Origin: Bdellovibrio svalbardensis
GTDB taxonomy: Bacteria > Bdellovibrionota > Bdellovibrionia > Bdellovibrionales > Bdellovibrionaceae
NCBI RefSeq assembly: GCF_029531655.1
Contig: NZ_JANRMI010000002.1
Location: 496,001-560,000 of the forward strand
Length of the DNA: 64,000 nt
Direction: 5' to 3'
Under the pieces are notes generated by a model. It was not told where the DNA came from and searched no databases. It saw nothing but the letters and a program-made list of their open reading frames with translations. How positions within the stretch are numbered: position 1 is the first letter of the stretch; each line of letters starts with the position of its first letter. Of the stretch, positions 22,089 to 31,210 are shown piece by piece. The translations under genes were made by a program, and so were the position numbers.

Positions 22089-22547
22089 TTAGTAGCGGTT
22101 GCCCCAACCATAAAGTCTTACGATAAAGTTGCCGGCGCTGGTTGCGAAGACCAGCTGGCCGCTGTAGCTTCCCTCATACCAGGGTCTAAATTCGATCCAT
22201 GCATCACAGGTGCGGCCGGGATTTAATACCCGTGGGCAGTTGCTATTGCCGTAGAACGCTGATCCATAAAGACGAACAGAGTCGATCAGCAAAGGTTGGT
22301 TGCCAGTGCTGCGCAACGTGAAACGAGCATATTGACTGGTATTTACTCTGGTGATTCCAAAGTTGTAGTTATAATACTGATTGCCGCCATGATGGTCGGA
22401 GTTGCCGAGTGTTTGAACATTTTCGACGGAATTGGCAACTGTGATGGTCAGTTGCGATTCCGTAGGTTGGGTCTCCGCAGCGATGCTTGAAACGGAAACA
22501 AAACAAGAAATCAGTGAGCCGGTCAGGGCCATTAGCCAAGTTTTCAT
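22089..22547 (-). CDS. Secreted beta-sandwich protein of the choice-of-anchor/ASH-like type
   Basis: 152 residues from the ATG at 22547, chosen because AAAGGAGA stands nine bases ahead and a signal peptide follows directly (MKTWLMALTGSLISCFVSVSSIAA). A longer frame reaching 22631 has neither. The C-terminal half (FTLRSTGNQPLLIDSVRLYGS..., LNPGRTCDAWIEFRPWYEGSYSG) has the pattern of immunoglobulin-like ASPM/SPD-2/Hydin or choice-of-anchor D domains, with a Cys pair. It probably works as a surface or periplasmic binding module. It is convergent with murJ and divergent from the MFS gene. Confidence 0.7.
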   Translation of the reverse strand: MKTWLMALTGSLISCFVSVSSIAAETQPTESQLTITVANSVENVQTLGNSDHHGGNQYYNYNFGITRVNTSQYARFTLRSTGNQPLLIDSVRLYGSAFYGNSNCPRVLNPGRTCDAWIEFRPWYEGSYSGQLVFATSAGNFIVRLYGWGNRY

Positions 22548-22648
22548 AAGCGTCTCCTTTGAGCGATGAGTGAGTTTATTGGTTGAGAATAATTTTTGTT
22601 GAAGAAGCAATTGGTCGCAAAGAAATTCCATTGTATGCTCTTCTTGTC

Positions 22649-24195: not shown

Positions 24196-24717
24196 ATGAA
24201 GGACTATATTCAGTATCTGGAAGAGGTTTTAGGCCTGCAAAAGGTCATGATCGCGAAGGATCCGTCAACATCATCAGCCGTTAAAGCTCAGTTTTTTACT
24301 GAGCAAGGTTCATTTGCTCCCGCAGGGGCAACTTTACAGACACCCACTGATATTCAGCACTATGAATTGATCTTTCTCAATATTCTGACTCAAGCTAAAG
24401 AAAGCATCTTTCTTCCAGAGACCAAAGAGTTGTTTGGCAAGATGAAGGCCGCAATGAAACTGGTGAATCTTCAAGTGCTAGAACTTGATTGCACCGTCGA
24501 AGATCGTTCACAGCTTCCTTCAGAACTTGCAAAAATCTGTGAAAGCAAAGTGGTTGTGGTCTTTAGCTCGTTTCCGAAAGATATTGGCGAGCTGATCTTT
24601 AAAGGCCCGGGAAAATGGATTGAAACATACAGTCCCGCTTATTTGATAGAAGATGCGGGGGCTAAAAAAGTTGTGTGGAATGATCTGCAAAAAGTCATGA
24701 AGGAGCTCAACGTATGA
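24196..24717 (+). CDS. Unknown protein resembling a degenerate family-4 uracil-DNA glycosylase fold
   Basis: 173 residues. I recognise no standard family with certainty. The spacing of elements recalls the uracil-DNA-glycosylase superfamily: HYELIFLNILTQAKESIF at the place where family 4 has its GEAGELL helix, a strand VVVVFSSFP in place of the usual VVxLGxxA strand, and SPAYLIEDAGAKKVVWNDLQ matching the HPSYLLR...W-DL end. The catalytic motifs GExPG and HPS are not there, so enzyme activity is unlikely. It overlaps nfeD by four bases (ATGA, 24714-24717) and is the first gene of the operon. Confidence 0.6.
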   Translation: MKDYIQYLEEVLGLQKVMIAKDPSTSSAVKAQFFTEQGSFAPAGATLQTPTDIQHYELIFLNILTQAKESIFLPETKELFGKMKAAMKLVNLQVLELDCTVEDRSQLPSELAKICESKVVVVFSSFPKDIGELIFKGPGKWIETYSPAYLIEDAGAKKVVWNDLQKVMKELNV

Positions 24718-26803: not shown

Positions 26804-26838
26804 GGGCAAAGCAAGAAGCTTTGCCCTTTTGTTTTTTT
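26804..26838 (+). terminator. Intrinsic terminator of the NfeD-slipin operon
   Basis: Arms GGGCAAAGC and GCTTTGCCC form a nine-pair stem around AAGAA, followed by a T-rich run. A second inverted repeat with arms GAGAGAG and CTCTCTC lies directly ahead (about 26774-26793) and may strengthen it. Confidence 0.85.
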
Positions 26839-26870
26839 GTGCAATGCAAACTCTACGGACGGAGTCGTTG

Positions 26871-28034
26871 GTGCGAATCATTTGGGCCTTCATTGGTTTT
26901 TTGAGCGTTTTGTTTCTATCCATCCCAGACGCCCAATCTGCGGCATCCCCGCAAAATCAGGAACTTGTCCGTGTTCGCCTGATGACCATCAATAAAAAGA
27001 TTCAACTCACCGGGATGAGTCTTAAGTTTCAAAACTTGGCCCAACCCTTCCGACCTGTTGCCATTCCTCAAAACGGCCAAGCTGAAGTTCGCCTTTTGGA
27101 AAAAAACGGAAAGTATTTTTGGGCCTTAAGATTGAACAATCAAGAGCGTGAGCATCTGTTTACTGAAAAGTATTTGATGGTGCAAGGTGAAGACCTTCGC
27201 GTGGGAGCGCAAAGCCTGCCGGCTAGAGTTCTGCTAACACCCAATGGAAATCAAAAAGTCGATGTGATTGGTGTAGTCCCTTTGGATGAATATATCGTGG
27301 GAGTACTATCCAGCGAAATGCCCACGTCGTGGCCGATGGAAACCTTAAAGGCCCAAGCCGTGGCGATTCGCTCCTACACATTGGCAGTTATCGAGGAACG
27401 CAAAGATCGTCCTTACCATGTTGAAAGCAGTGTGATGGATCAGGTTTTCCGCCATGTTATGGGTGAGGATGAAAACGATGCTAAGGTAAAAAGAGCGATT
27501 CAAGCCGTGGCGGATACGCAAGGTATTCGTCTTTATGGGCCGAACGAGAAAGTACTCAAAGCCTTCTATCATGCTGACTGCGGCGGTAAAACCACCACCG
27601 CAAAAAATGTTTGGAAGGGGGGCGTGGATGCCGGTGTTGCCGTCGACAGCTCTTGTCCGACGGGGCCCCACGCTCAATGGAATTTGAAAATGACCAAAGA
27701 AGATTTGAAAAAGCGTCTTCACCTTGTCGACTTCACTTCGTTGGCGTTGGTAAAAGCAAAAGGGGATTCGCGAGTTCAATCAGTGCAAGTGGCTATGACA
27801 GATGGAACTCGCAAGATGATCTCTGCCAATGATTTTCGCCAAGCCATGGGCTATCAAGATTTGCGCAGCACTTCTTTTGATATCAAGGAAGAAGGGGATC
27901 AAGTGGTCTTTTCAGGACGTGGCTTTGGTCACGGTGTTGGGCTTTGTCAGTGGGGAAGCCGTGTTCTCGGGCAGCGCGGAGCAAAATTTCAAGAGATTCT
28001 AAAACATTACTATCCGCTCGCTAGACTTAAGTAA
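26871..28034 (+). CDS. SpoIID/LytB-domain protein
   Basis: 387 residues from a GTG at 26871, chosen because GGAG stands six bases ahead and the signal peptide (VRIIWAFIGFLSVLFLSIPDAQS) follows at once; earlier in-frame starts lie inside the T run of the terminator. The SpoIID domain is clear: VVPLDEYIVGVLSSEMPTSW, LKAQAVAIRSYTLAV and the terminal FSGRGFGHGVGLCQWGS. SpoIID proteins are lytic transglycosylases acting on stem-peptide-free peptidoglycan, so a role in wall remodelling is likely. The Glu in SSEMP is the expected catalytic acid. Confidence 0.9.
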   Translation: MRIIWAFIGFLSVLFLSIPDAQSAASPQNQELVRVRLMTINKKIQLTGMSLKFQNLAQPFRPVAIPQNGQAEVRLLEKNGKYFWALRLNNQEREHLFTEKYLMVQGEDLRVGAQSLPARVLLTPNGNQKVDVIGVVPLDEYIVGVLSSEMPTSWPMETLKAQAVAIRSYTLAVIEERKDRPYHVESSVMDQVFRHVMGEDENDAKVKRAIQAVADTQGIRLYGPNEKVLKAFYHADCGGKTTTAKNVWKGGVDAGVAVDSSCPTGPHAQWNLKMTKEDLKKRLHLVDFTSLALVKAKGDSRVQSVQVAMTDGTRKMISANDFRQAMGYQDLRSTSFDIKEEGDQVVFSGRGFGHGVGLCQWGSRVLGQRGAKFQEILKHYYPLARLK

Positions 28035-28070
28035 ATTTAGTTTAGTTAAATAAAGCCGATAAGTTTTCAT

Positions 28071-29930
28071 ATGAAAAACATGAAAACTACAGTACTTGTC
28101 GGCATCATTGTTTTATTATCAACTGCATCACTTCAAGTTCAAGCGACGGAAGCGGATGCTCCCTGCTTGGACTGCGCAGCGACTGATGGAAAGGTTCTTT
28201 CAAAGTCCGCCATTGCCATTCAAGAGGCCGTCAAACCGTCAGAGAAAAAATCAGACCAACAATCAGAAATGCATTGGATTGATGCCGCCTTCTTTGTAGA
28301 TACAAAGCCCGTAGGTAAAGAGCTGGATGTCATTTTCAAAAATCCCAGCGATCTCAATATTAATATTTATAAAATGAAAAACGTAAATTCGATTTTTACG
28401 AGTTTCCTAAATCACAAGAGTTTGAAAGAAGCGTTGCAAGACGTCAATAAAAGCGGTGCGAGCTTAGGTCACGAAGAAAAATTATTACTTTTGAGTATGG
28501 TGGGTAGTCGCCTCTCAAGTGGATACAGCGCGACCGGAAAAGAAAATCGAGATATCAACTCTGTCTACCTTAATGCTGTGAAGGCAAAAAAAGAAGGTGG
28601 GATTTGTGGCGATATTCATCAGCTACTGGGAGATGTGGCAAAAAGCCTGGGCTTCGAAGCAGTGGGACGTCATACCGGACAATGGCAGCAGGATCTGACC
28701 AAAGACAATGCTGGTGGCCACGCGATCATGCATTTCCGCGATCCCAAAACCGGTGAGTACTACGTGCAGAACTATTCGCAAATTTACAACACTCGCCAAA
28801 AAACTCTGCAATCTGCTGTCGATGTCTCGACAAAAATTTTAGGAGTGATCACGGGGCAATCATACGTTGAATCACGTCCGGGGAAAACCCATGAGTATGT
28901 TCCAGCGACGGCGCAATGGGTGCAAGAACAGATTAAGAATGCGGCAACAATTAAAAAAGACTCTTCGGTCATGACGATCAAAGCAGGTCAAAATGAGCAG
29001 ACTTTTGCAGTGCAATTGGGCAACGAAAATATCAAAGGCTTCTTAATGAGCAGCCGGATCAATACGAACGAGGGTAACTATCAAGTGGATGTTGCCGGAT
29101 TGTCAACTCGAGGTGAATATTCTCGAGAATTCAAAGATCGTATGGTTGATGAAGTGAAAGTCACAACCGAGGCCTACGGTGGCGCGATGAGAATTTCAGC
29201 TCCGGGCTTTGATGCCATTACTGACACCTATAAACAGGGGGAGCGCAATACGTTGTTCTTTGGCGCTAACATGAAAGGCTCCGCTCGTATTAATGATACG
29301 ACGGGGAAGATTGAAATCAATTCGATCAATCTAGATTTGAAGCCTAAAGGCAGTGAGCAAACCAAGACGACCACCGCAGGAACTCGAACAGAGTTTAAAG
29401 TGGGGGCCGAGCAGGAATGGAAAGATTTGAATCTGAAAGCTTCCGCTGATCGCACTTGGGCCTTTATTCCAATGATTGAGCAGCATCAAAAGTCGAAGCC
29501 GACGACTGCCTATGATCGGGTGGGTGTTATGTACGATACCAGTAAGCCTGATAAGAAAGAAGCCTACTTGGTTGTGGGTTCTGATGTTTATTTCCTGGAA
29601 GGTGTGAATGTCAGTTCAGCAGTGGCCTTGAAGAATTCGATTAAAGCGGTCATTCCAACGGAACAACTGGGAACCTTTACGCTCAGTGCAGATCTGGCTA
29701 AGGTTGTTCAGAACAAAAGCAAAGATCCTTTTTATGACACCGTTCCAACTACTTCAGTGGGGATTGATTGGAACAAGCAGCTGAATAAGTTGGTCGATGT
29801 GGGTTTCAATGTGAATTACACCAAAGGAAATCAGATACAGCCATTTGCGGTTATCGGACCTGTGACTCCAGTGATGGGGGGAACAGAAAAGAAAGTGCAA
29901 GGAATGGTGTATCTGCATGGTCGCTTCTAG
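28071..29930 (+). CDS. Transglutaminase-like cysteine-hydrolase domain with probable C-terminal outer-membrane barrel
   Basis: 619 residues with a signal peptide (about 1-26). A helical region is followed by a transglutaminase/cysteine-peptidase-like core: GGICGDIHQ (Cys179), GGHAIMHF (His217) and YYVQNYSQIY, where Asn234 sits at the usual third-residue distance. From about residue 330 the sequence turns into alternating amphipathic strands and ends VQGMVYLHGRF, a terminal Phe typical of outer-membrane barrels. The combination suggests a hydrolase or cross-linking domain anchored in the outer membrane. The start has no strong ribosome site; MKTT three codons later is an alternative. The barrel assignment is by eye. 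Confidence 0.65.
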   Translation: MKNMKTTVLVGIIVLLSTASLQVQATEADAPCLDCAATDGKVLSKSAIAIQEAVKPSEKKSDQQSEMHWIDAAFFVDTKPVGKELDVIFKNPSDLNINIYKMKNVNSIFTSFLNHKSLKEALQDVNKSGASLGHEEKLLLLSMVGSRLSSGYSATGKENRDINSVYLNAVKAKKEGGICGDIHQLLGDVAKSLGFEAVGRHTGQWQQDLTKDNAGGHAIMHFRDPKTGEYYVQNYSQIYNTRQKTLQSAVDVSTKILGVITGQSYVESRPGKTHEYVPATAQWVQEQIKNAATIKKDSSVMTIKAGQNEQTFAVQLGNENIKGFLMSSRINTNEGNYQVDVAGLSTRGEYSREFKDRMVDEVKVTTEAYGGAMRISAPGFDAITDTYKQGERNTLFFGANMKGSARINDTTGKIEINSINLDLKPKGSEQTKTTTAGTRTEFKVGAEQEWKDLNLKASADRTWAFIPMIEQHQKSKPTTAYDRVGVMYDTSKPDKKEAYLVVGSDVYFLEGVNVSSAVALKNSIKAVIPTEQLGTFTLSADLAKVVQNKSKDPFYDTVPTTSVGIDWNKQLNKLVDVGFNVNYTKGNQIQPFAVIGPVTPVMGGTEKKVQGMVYLHGRF

Positions 29931-29935
29931 TTGGC

Positions 29936-29954
29936 ACTCCGACTTCGTCGGAGT
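29936..29954 (+). terminator. Hairpin just after the transglutaminase-like gene
   Basis: Arms ACTCCGAC and GTCGGAGT are exact inverted copies around TTC, five bases after the stop codon. The following bases are only weakly T-rich, so it may act as an RNA-stabilising hairpin ahead of the stronger terminator at 30005. Confidence 0.5.
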
Positions 29955-30004
29955 AGAGAAGTCTATTTTAGTTAAAATTCTTTGGACTTGAGGTAGGTAA
30001 AATA

Positions 30005-30033
30005 AAAAAAGGGACTGTGAAAGTCCCTTTTTT
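30005..30033. terminator. Bidirectional intrinsic terminator
   Basis: GGGACT and AGTCCC pair, extended by A runs on the left and T runs on the right into a long stem. It can end transcripts from the gene to the left and from the minus-strand small gene to the right. Confidence 0.8.
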
Positions 30034-30057
30034 AGTTCCAGAGTGTGATTCTATTTT

Positions 30058-30135
30058 TTAGAATCCCATAAAGACTCGGGCCGCAAACATAAAAACTGCT
30101 CCCAAGATCAAGGCATTTGTTGCTGTGACTGTCAT
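30058..30135 (-). CDS. 25-residue single-pass membrane peptide
   Basis: The minus strand encodes MTVTATNALILGAVFMFAARVFMGF with a stop at 30058-30060. AAGGA stands eight bases before the ATG. The middle is a hydrophobic helix long enough to cross the membrane, with one Arg near the end. An intrinsic terminator directly follows. This gene-like context (ribosome site, membrane helix, terminator) supports expression despite the small size. A longer overlapping frame on the same strand (to 30421) is a shadow. Confidence 0.6.
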   Translation of the reverse strand: MTVTATNALILGAVFMFAARVFMGF

Positions 30136-30445
30136 ATGTCGTTCCTTTAAGTGAAATGGCTAAAATTTGATACAATTCCCATTTCGGTAAAATCCTAGAA
30201 ATTCTTGAATTTTTCTTTTTTTGACGAAGTATTAGACAGGGTTTTGGTCTGGTGGGTGCCCTTTTTGCGCTCCATCCCCAAGGATTAGACGATGAACAGC
30301 CTTTTGTTTCAGGCTGAGAAAGTGCATTTTTTACCAATGGTATCAATATCTTAAGTGGGTTGTGGAGGGTTGGCACAAGCATCGCAATAGCATCCCTATG
30401 AGAGGTGGCCACTAAAGGCACACCCCTTAAAAGAGAGAGGCTGTT
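30136..30445. other. 310-base intergenic region between the small membrane peptide and a lipoprotein gene
   Basis: No convincing coding frame. It should hold the minus-strand promoter of the small peptide and the plus-strand promoter of the lipoprotein gene; a sigma54-like site is noted separately at 30371-30385. The rest is AT-rich and shows nothing I can name. Confidence 0.5.
30371..30385 (+). promoter_or_regulatory. Sigma54-like promoter ahead of the lipoprotein gene
   Basis: TGGCACAAGCATCGC has GG and GC in the -24/-12 positions with exact spacing and differs from TGGCAC-N5-TTGC at one base. Transcription would start near 30396, fifty bases before the ATG at 30446. It depends on sigma54 being present in the host, which this window cannot show. 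Confidence 0.4.
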
Positions 30446-31210
30446 ATGAAAAATCTCAACACTAAGCTTTTGATCCTTCTTGCTGGGTTCTCACTTATGG
30501 GAGTCGGCTGCGGAAAGAATCAACTACAAGCAAACTCAACTAATGTAGTGAGTGATGGGACTATTCTTCCAGGCGGAGAAATCCCTGGTGCTCCAGACTC
30601 TACAACAACTTCATCGGGTTCATACACGAACACGGCGACATTTGTTCCGGTTTCATTGGCTGAGTTCAACTCTTACGTAGCATCTCATCCATTGAACAAC
30701 CCATCGAACTTTAAAATCACAGTGGAATTGCAAAAAACAGCATCCAGCCGTTACGGTGGAACGGTTAAGTTGTCTTATACCGACACTGGTTACCAATACG
30801 CAGGAACTTTCACGGCGGGCACAGGAACAAACGTATCTATGTCTGGTTTGAAAGATAATGGAACTGAAGAGTCTCAGTTTAACTACTGGTATGCATCTGG
30901 CGGTAAAGCGGTGTTCTCTGGCATGTTCCAGGATTCTCAAGGTGCCATCGTGGTTGTTGTCGACAGCATGATCAACCAAGGTGATGCTCAAGGTGGTTCG
31001 GTTGTGTCTGGTTCAGTTTACTACAAGAACTTCGCACAGTCTTATGCAACTCAATCACCATATAGAAAGTGCTGGTTCATCTACAACGGACCATATAACT
31101 GCCGTGACTCTGCAATCATTAACAAGTCTTCTTTGATCCCTTCTGATGGTGGTTACAGAAAACTTGGAACTTTCACTGGATTGAGCAAGTCACAAGCGTT
31201 CGCACAGTAA
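30446..31210 (+). CDS. Lipoprotein of unknown function
   Basis: 254 residues. The N-terminus (MKNLNTKLLILLAGFSLMGVGCGKN) is a lipoprotein signal with lipobox GVGC. A Ser/Thr/Gly-rich linker (about 30-60) leads to a beta-rich domain with repeated Tyr and Gly (RYGGTVKLSYTDTGYQYAGTF) and two cysteines near the C-terminus (KCWFIYNGPYNCRD). No family recognised. A probable sigma54-like site stands upstream, and a second lipoprotein gene follows 62 bases downstream, starting with the similar MENLNKK. Confidence 0.75.
   Translation: MKNLNTKLLILLAGFSLMGVGCGKNQLQANSTNVVSDGTILPGGEIPGAPDSTTTSSGSYTNTATFVPVSLAEFNSYVASHPLNNPSNFKITVELQKTASSRYGGTVKLSYTDTGYQYAGTFTAGTGTNVSMSGLKDNGTEESQFNYWYASGGKAVFSGMFQDSQGAIVVVVDSMINQGDAQGGSVVSGSVYYKNFAQSYATQSPYRKCWFIYNGPYNCRDSAIINKSSLIPSDGGYRKLGTFTGLSKSQAFAQ

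Follow-up and report, generated by a model that had tools for sequence, protein, structure and literature searches.

A probable transglutaminase-like cysteine enzyme domain joined to a predicted outer-membrane barrel in Bdellovibrio svalbardensis

Locus and protein layout

The window, by which we mean the whole analysed stretch of 64,000 nucleotides of Bdellovibrio svalbardensis DNA, contains at positions 28071-29930 of the forward strand a single open frame of 619 codons, while the reverse strand there is riddled with stops. It lies between a SpoIID-domain gene, itself preceded by NfeD-like and Band_7 genes, and a lipoprotein-like gene. The features of the locus are the following:

26829-28034, forward strand: upstream SpoIID-domain gene (PF08486, E 1.8e-22), ending 36 nt before the ATG of the next gene
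28071-29930, forward strand: whole gene for a 619-aa protein, ATG at 28071, stop included; homologues exist
28071-28145, forward strand: probable Sec signal peptide, residues 1-25 (ending in VQA, then TEADAPC), judged by eye
28164-28175, forward strand: CxxC (Cys32, Cys35) close to the mature N-terminus, retained in the alignment only by the SpoIID-adjacent clade
28260-28964, forward strand: predicted transglutaminase-like domain, residues 64-298 (AlphaFold2 of the domain alone, fold matches, hhalign)
28605-28607, forward strand: Cys179, presumed nucleophile, in 23/23 members
28611-28613, forward strand: Asp181 at Cys+2 (of the 23 members, 20 have D, 2 have N and 1 has Q)
28719-28721, forward strand: His217, presumed general base, in 23/23 members
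28770-28772, forward strand: Asn234, presumed third member of the triad (of the 23 members, 18 have N and 5 have D)
28995-29927, forward strand: predicted beta-barrel of the outer membrane, formed by residues 309-619 in about 14 strands, the last being KVQGMVYLHGRF (model, fold matches, amphipathicity, loop pattern)
30446-31210, forward strand: downstream lipoprotein-like gene, which adjoins SpoIID directly where the barrel-enzyme gene is absent

The initial annotation had placed Cys179 in GGICGD, His217 in GGHAIMHF, Asn234 in a following strand and a terminal Phe in this frame, and all of these residues are indeed present, with Asn234 in YYVQNYS and Phe619 as the last residue. The N-terminus, MKNMKTTVLVGIIVLLSTASLQVQA, reads by eye as a Sec-type signal peptide. 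Searches of the protein against Pfam, NCBIfam and the PDB sequences gave no match above cut-off, in agreement with the earlier statement that the family is unnamed. Further upstream in the window lie a reverse-strand gene (22089-22631) whose probably exported product, at most 180 aa long, contains a HYDIN/VesB-like Ig domain (PF22544, E 1.3e-5), and a forward-strand gene (24196-24717) for a 173-aa protein with no Pfam match, a homologue of which is found upstream of SpoIID elsewhere (L066).

Catalytic signature

Conservation was followed in an alignment of 23 divergent members, with identity down to 15-20%. Cys179 and His217 are invariant in all of them, and at position 234 there is Asn in 18 members and Asp in the other 5; because of this the Cys/His/Asn motif is not a product of chance. 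The exchange falls at exactly the third position, where it is one that the papain/transglutaminase triad permits, and the sequence order Cys-His-Asn/Asp found in all 23 members is that of the transglutaminase-like cysteine protease superfamily. Tyr152, Gly177, Ile182 and Tyr235 are likewise invariant and His183 is retained in 21 members, while His201 and His221 are invariant in close relatives and variable in distant ones.

One would argue that the fold is kept for binding only and that the enzyme is dead, as Rad4/XPC and protein 4.2, which are non-catalytic members of the transglutaminase-like superfamily, appear in the list of fold matches. However, every member retains the Cys, the His and an Asn or Asp, and the exchange at position 234 preserves the triad. 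Thus we consider a dead enzyme extremely improbable.

Fold of the N-terminal domain

The AlphaFold2 model of residues 64-298 alone, which like the full-length model was built from four sequences, has a pLDDT of 70.5 and a pTM of 0.71; in it the Cys heads a helix, and the His and Asn lie on successive strands. Foldseek against the PDB returned weak matches for this model (best E 0.025), with arylamine N-acetyltransferases and the amide synthase ShGdmF in the top rows and CPR-C4 lower. VIA-align ranked vasohibin (Z 7.7), CPR-C4 (7.2), LapG (6.6) and 3KD4 (6.1) first, followed by SseI, NTAQ1, TglA, ShGdmF, PNGase, NAT and Rad4; all these Z values are below 8, where unrelated folds can also score, and rows that differ by less than 1 count as tied. 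None of the domain matches from Foldseek or VIA-align is individually significant, and we infer a transglutaminase-like core because so many of the rows fall in one superfamily. The same set of superfamily members is named in PMC4866520.

Comparison of profiles points in the same direction. When the 23-member domain alignment was compared by hhalign with ten Transglut_core domains from the same order, the Cys was aligned on the Cys with a score of 23.7, at a probability of just 6%; the highest score among 60 column shuffles was 18.6. The signal comes from the wider family only: a narrow 11-member profile was not significant against Transglut_core (P 0.097). Three distant members gave sub-threshold matches to the transglutaminase-like domain PF04473 (E 0.017 to 0.13). 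In hmmscan neither the protein nor its relatives reached the gathering cut-off of Transglut_core (PF01841), which has no match anywhere in the genome of the window, and there was no Pfam or NCBIfam match to the curated LapG/BTLCP family. The papain/transglutaminase-like core proposed at first is thus supported by the pTM of the domain model, by the concentration of matches in the superfamily and by the way Asn and Asp replace each other as third residue of the triad.

The same evidence bears on the notion of a true transglutaminase, by which envelope proteins would be cross-linked or attached to amines. The fold is transglutaminase-like, TglA from S. pyogenes is among the matches (Z 5.7) and the Transglut_core profile signal is there, though weak. 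However, the superfamily consists largely of hydrolases and acyltransferases, the nearest folds are mainly proteases and acyltransferases with TglA no higher than the rest, and the sequence carries no mark of an amine-acceptor site. Therefore, this activity is very unlikely.

Relation to known cysteine enzymes

The closest functional parallel is offered by LapG (BTLCP), a periplasmic cysteine enzyme that shares the fold (rmsd 4.5 over 130 aligned residues at the Z of 6.6), the triad and an acid at Cys+2, which is Asp181 in the barrel enzyme; LapG differs in being soluble and devoid of a barrel, and has no sequence match to the barrel enzyme. Of the features tied to Ca-dependent adhesin cleavage, which marks LapG/BTLCP, the barrel enzyme shares only the Asp at Cys+2. 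In PMC4866520 residue E171 of VASH1 is aligned with the Ca-binding D139 of LapG. The offset of Asp181 from Cys179 equals that of VASH1 E171 from Cys169, and control of the predicted enzyme by Ca is an idea that this spacing may suggest.

The top fold matches, the vasohibins and CPR-C4, are small Cys-His proteases within the transglutaminase-like superfamily, but in them Ser/Thr or a Leu carbonyl serves as the third residue (PMC4866520, PMC9108980), where the barrel enzyme has Asn/Asp, and they possess neither export nor a barrel. The arylamine N-acetyltransferases and ShGdmF, which lead in Foldseek, are Cys-His-Asp enzymes of the superfamily; they are, however, cytosolic acyltransferases, and one family member alone has a weak Pfam match to them (E 0.06). 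The Transglut_core domains of Bdellovibrionota show weak profile similarity with the Cys in register, yet their Cys-x3-Ala is Cys-x3-His in most members of our family, their HAW and DPT motifs are replaced by GGHxxxHF and QNYS, and no match is reached at the Pfam cut-off.

C-terminal barrel

The full-length model is of low confidence (pLDDT 48, pTM 0.41) and shows 14 strands from residue 309 to 617. In Foldseek FadL and FhaC head the matches to this model, and of the 50 matches listed nearly all are barrels, lipovitellin being one non-barrel among them; the best 50 rows listed by VIA are bacterial or organellar membrane barrels. The amphipathicity of the strands lies above that of shuffled sequences (mean 3.60 vs 2.30, sd 0.27). 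Odd strands are followed by long gaps (3, 5, 29, 11, 7, 12 and 22 residues) and even strands by short ones (2, 4, 4, 9, 3 and 2; odd vs even p 0.016), and among 11 relatives the strand lengths are near-constant while the changes in length fall between strands. A signal peptide, an even number of amphipathic strands, alternation of loops and turns and a final-strand motif, all hallmarks of outer-membrane barrels, are thus found together, with strand limits taken from the low-confidence model. Because amphipathic strands also occur in soluble sheets and the strand limits come from a weak model, the barrel is supported, but not proven. The core is the more conserved of the two parts (37-84% vs 27-79%).

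These data agree with the initial claim of an outer-membrane barrel joined to the core, as fold matches, amphipathic strands and loop pattern all point to it, and structure prediction yielded neither a model lacking the core nor a soluble C-terminal half. The start of the barrel had been set after residue 330 and has to be moved to near residue 309, with about 14 strands. The terminal Phe, which had been taken as a mark of the barrel, is not a family-wide trait, because most relatives end in F, W, I, L or M inside a typical final-strand motif.

The alternation of long loops with short turns would place both ends of the barrel in the periplasm, and this modeled topology favours a periplasmic side for the enzyme over surface exposure. 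It could also be that the protein is a type V-like autotransporter, whose barrel exports the enzyme domain to the surface or for release, with the helix 279-292 in the pore, so that it acts on prey or surroundings. The order of signal peptide, enzyme, helix and C-terminal barrel is as expected for such a protein, and the NalP translocator (Z 9.5, aligned to 279-424 of the model), EspP and AaaA are among the top VIA rows. However, these rows cover just 119-139 residues of the low-confidence model and tie with porins, FhaC and TamA. The type Va class is defined by a 12-strand barrel of the autotransporter family, whereas our protein has about 14 strands and lacks a Pfam autotransporter match. 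We therefore regard this kind of export as unlikely.

Outer-membrane-barrel enzyme fusions are known with serine-type catalysis. The autotransporters NalP and EstA and the patatin-type PlpD resemble our protein in having the enzyme at the N-terminus and the outer-membrane barrel at the C-terminus; their passengers are of serine type and their barrels have 12 or 16 strands, and the barrel-enzyme family has no Pfam match to barrels of these types. T-Mac of Treponema denticola was considered as a precedent and set aside, as the abstract on it gives Ig-like domains and a cysteine protease, and no barrel.

Distribution and genomic context

The gene occurs in 9 of 24 genomes of the same genus. Five relatives (in G005, G020, G019, G001 and G007) have 62-75% identity across nearly the full length, and more distant ones, at 34-39%, were found in G018, G010, G002, G020 (a second copy) and G038, which belongs to another family. 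The 11-member profile, run within genomes of the phylum Bdellovibrionota, gave matches with E up to 0.01 in 30 of 369, the weakest of which span short stretches only; many of the matches fall in proteins some 580-710 aa long that combine the C, H, N/D motif with a C-terminal half rich in strands. The distribution across the phylum is patchy. A scan of GTDB species contigs, which requires an exact short motif, found no relative with the single protein and three loci, all from Bdellovibrionales, with the profile, while the viral contigs and plasmids searched contained zero relatives.

Of the two members in G020 (L003, L011), the one at the SpoIID site is 63% identical to our protein and the other, at a different place, 34%; the 34% copy is flanked by genes for trypsin-like and astacin-like secreted proteases, as assigned by eye. 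A distant member at L032:409-3287 has a lipoprotein-type signal (LLLLQGC) and shares a few bases with the gene upstream of it, which resembles a lipase or esterase and has no Pfam match.

The gene adjoins SpoIID in five further genomes, and the two genes are possibly co-transcribed. In four genomes of the genus (G002, G008, G018 and G009) SpoIID is followed by the lipoprotein gene with no barrel-enzyme gene in between, and because of this direct succession we regard the gene as a presence/absence cassette. Its site in the window is 26829-31210, and L066, L068, L073 and L077 are the site without the gene in four same-genus genomes. No remnant of the gene was seen at the site in G009, although the SpoIID proteins of G009 and the carrier G019 share 88% identity. 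The divergence of gene and SpoIID from those of the window runs in parallel (75/67, 63/63, 62/61 and 62/59%), which suggests, as far as such sequence comparison goes, vertical descent with losses.

The proximity of SpoIID, 36 nt upstream in the window, raises the notion of a peptidoglycan amidase or endopeptidase acting together with its neighbour SpoIID. However, SpoIID is present in 23 of the 24 genus genomes and the gene in only 9, the lipoprotein gene adjoins SpoIID when the gene is absent, and distant family members occupy other gene contexts. The functional link is therefore weak, as SpoIID is near-universal in the genus and the gene is a cassette, and the partnership was marked down to quite unlikely. 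The literature on Bdellovibrio with transglutaminase or SpoIID offered nothing relevant.

Proposed function

Taken together, the conserved triad, the predicted folds and the domain order, which the analysis shows, are best explained by a Sec-exported protein in which an outer-membrane barrel anchors a periplasm-facing, transglutaminase-like cysteine peptidase or amidase; we give this reading a probability of about 0.6. After export by Sec, residues 309-619 would insert as an even-stranded barrel of about 14 strands with both ends in the periplasm, and would hold residues 64-298 or so against the inner face of the outer membrane. Asn234 would orient His217, which would activate Cys179, and attack of Cys179 on an amide bond would give a thioester acyl-enzyme, resolved by water, as in a peptidase or amidase, or, with lower probability, by an amine. 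The activity itself, hydrolysis over transfer, the periplasmic side and the kind of substrate are all what we infer. The most probable role would be to process, to a limited extent, a protein or peptide located at the outer membrane, similar to the role of LapG, but by an enzyme fixed in the membrane.

The superfamily is already known, but the family and its enzyme-barrel arrangement have no Pfam or NCBIfam model, and no description of a transglutaminase-like cysteine enzyme on an outer-membrane barrel was found in the open literature, a scope that takes in few subscription journals. The phylum Bdellovibrionota includes predators. A bolder notion, which is speculative and on balance improbable, is that of a new class of membrane-fixed transglutaminase-fold cysteine proteases with their own barrel, which would stand at the surface or the inner face, perhaps under Ca control, and process own or prey envelope proteins in Bdellovibrionota. 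C179, H217 and N234 are named handles for direct tests of envelope function in a predator.

A 233-aa frame at L038:1228-1929 shares with the family its H and N motifs (GHSMGRIRDPNTGEYYTVNYSQI), reads GVCTDYA around the Cys, and has no barrel; it may be a soluble relative and a link to ordinary transglutaminase-like domains.
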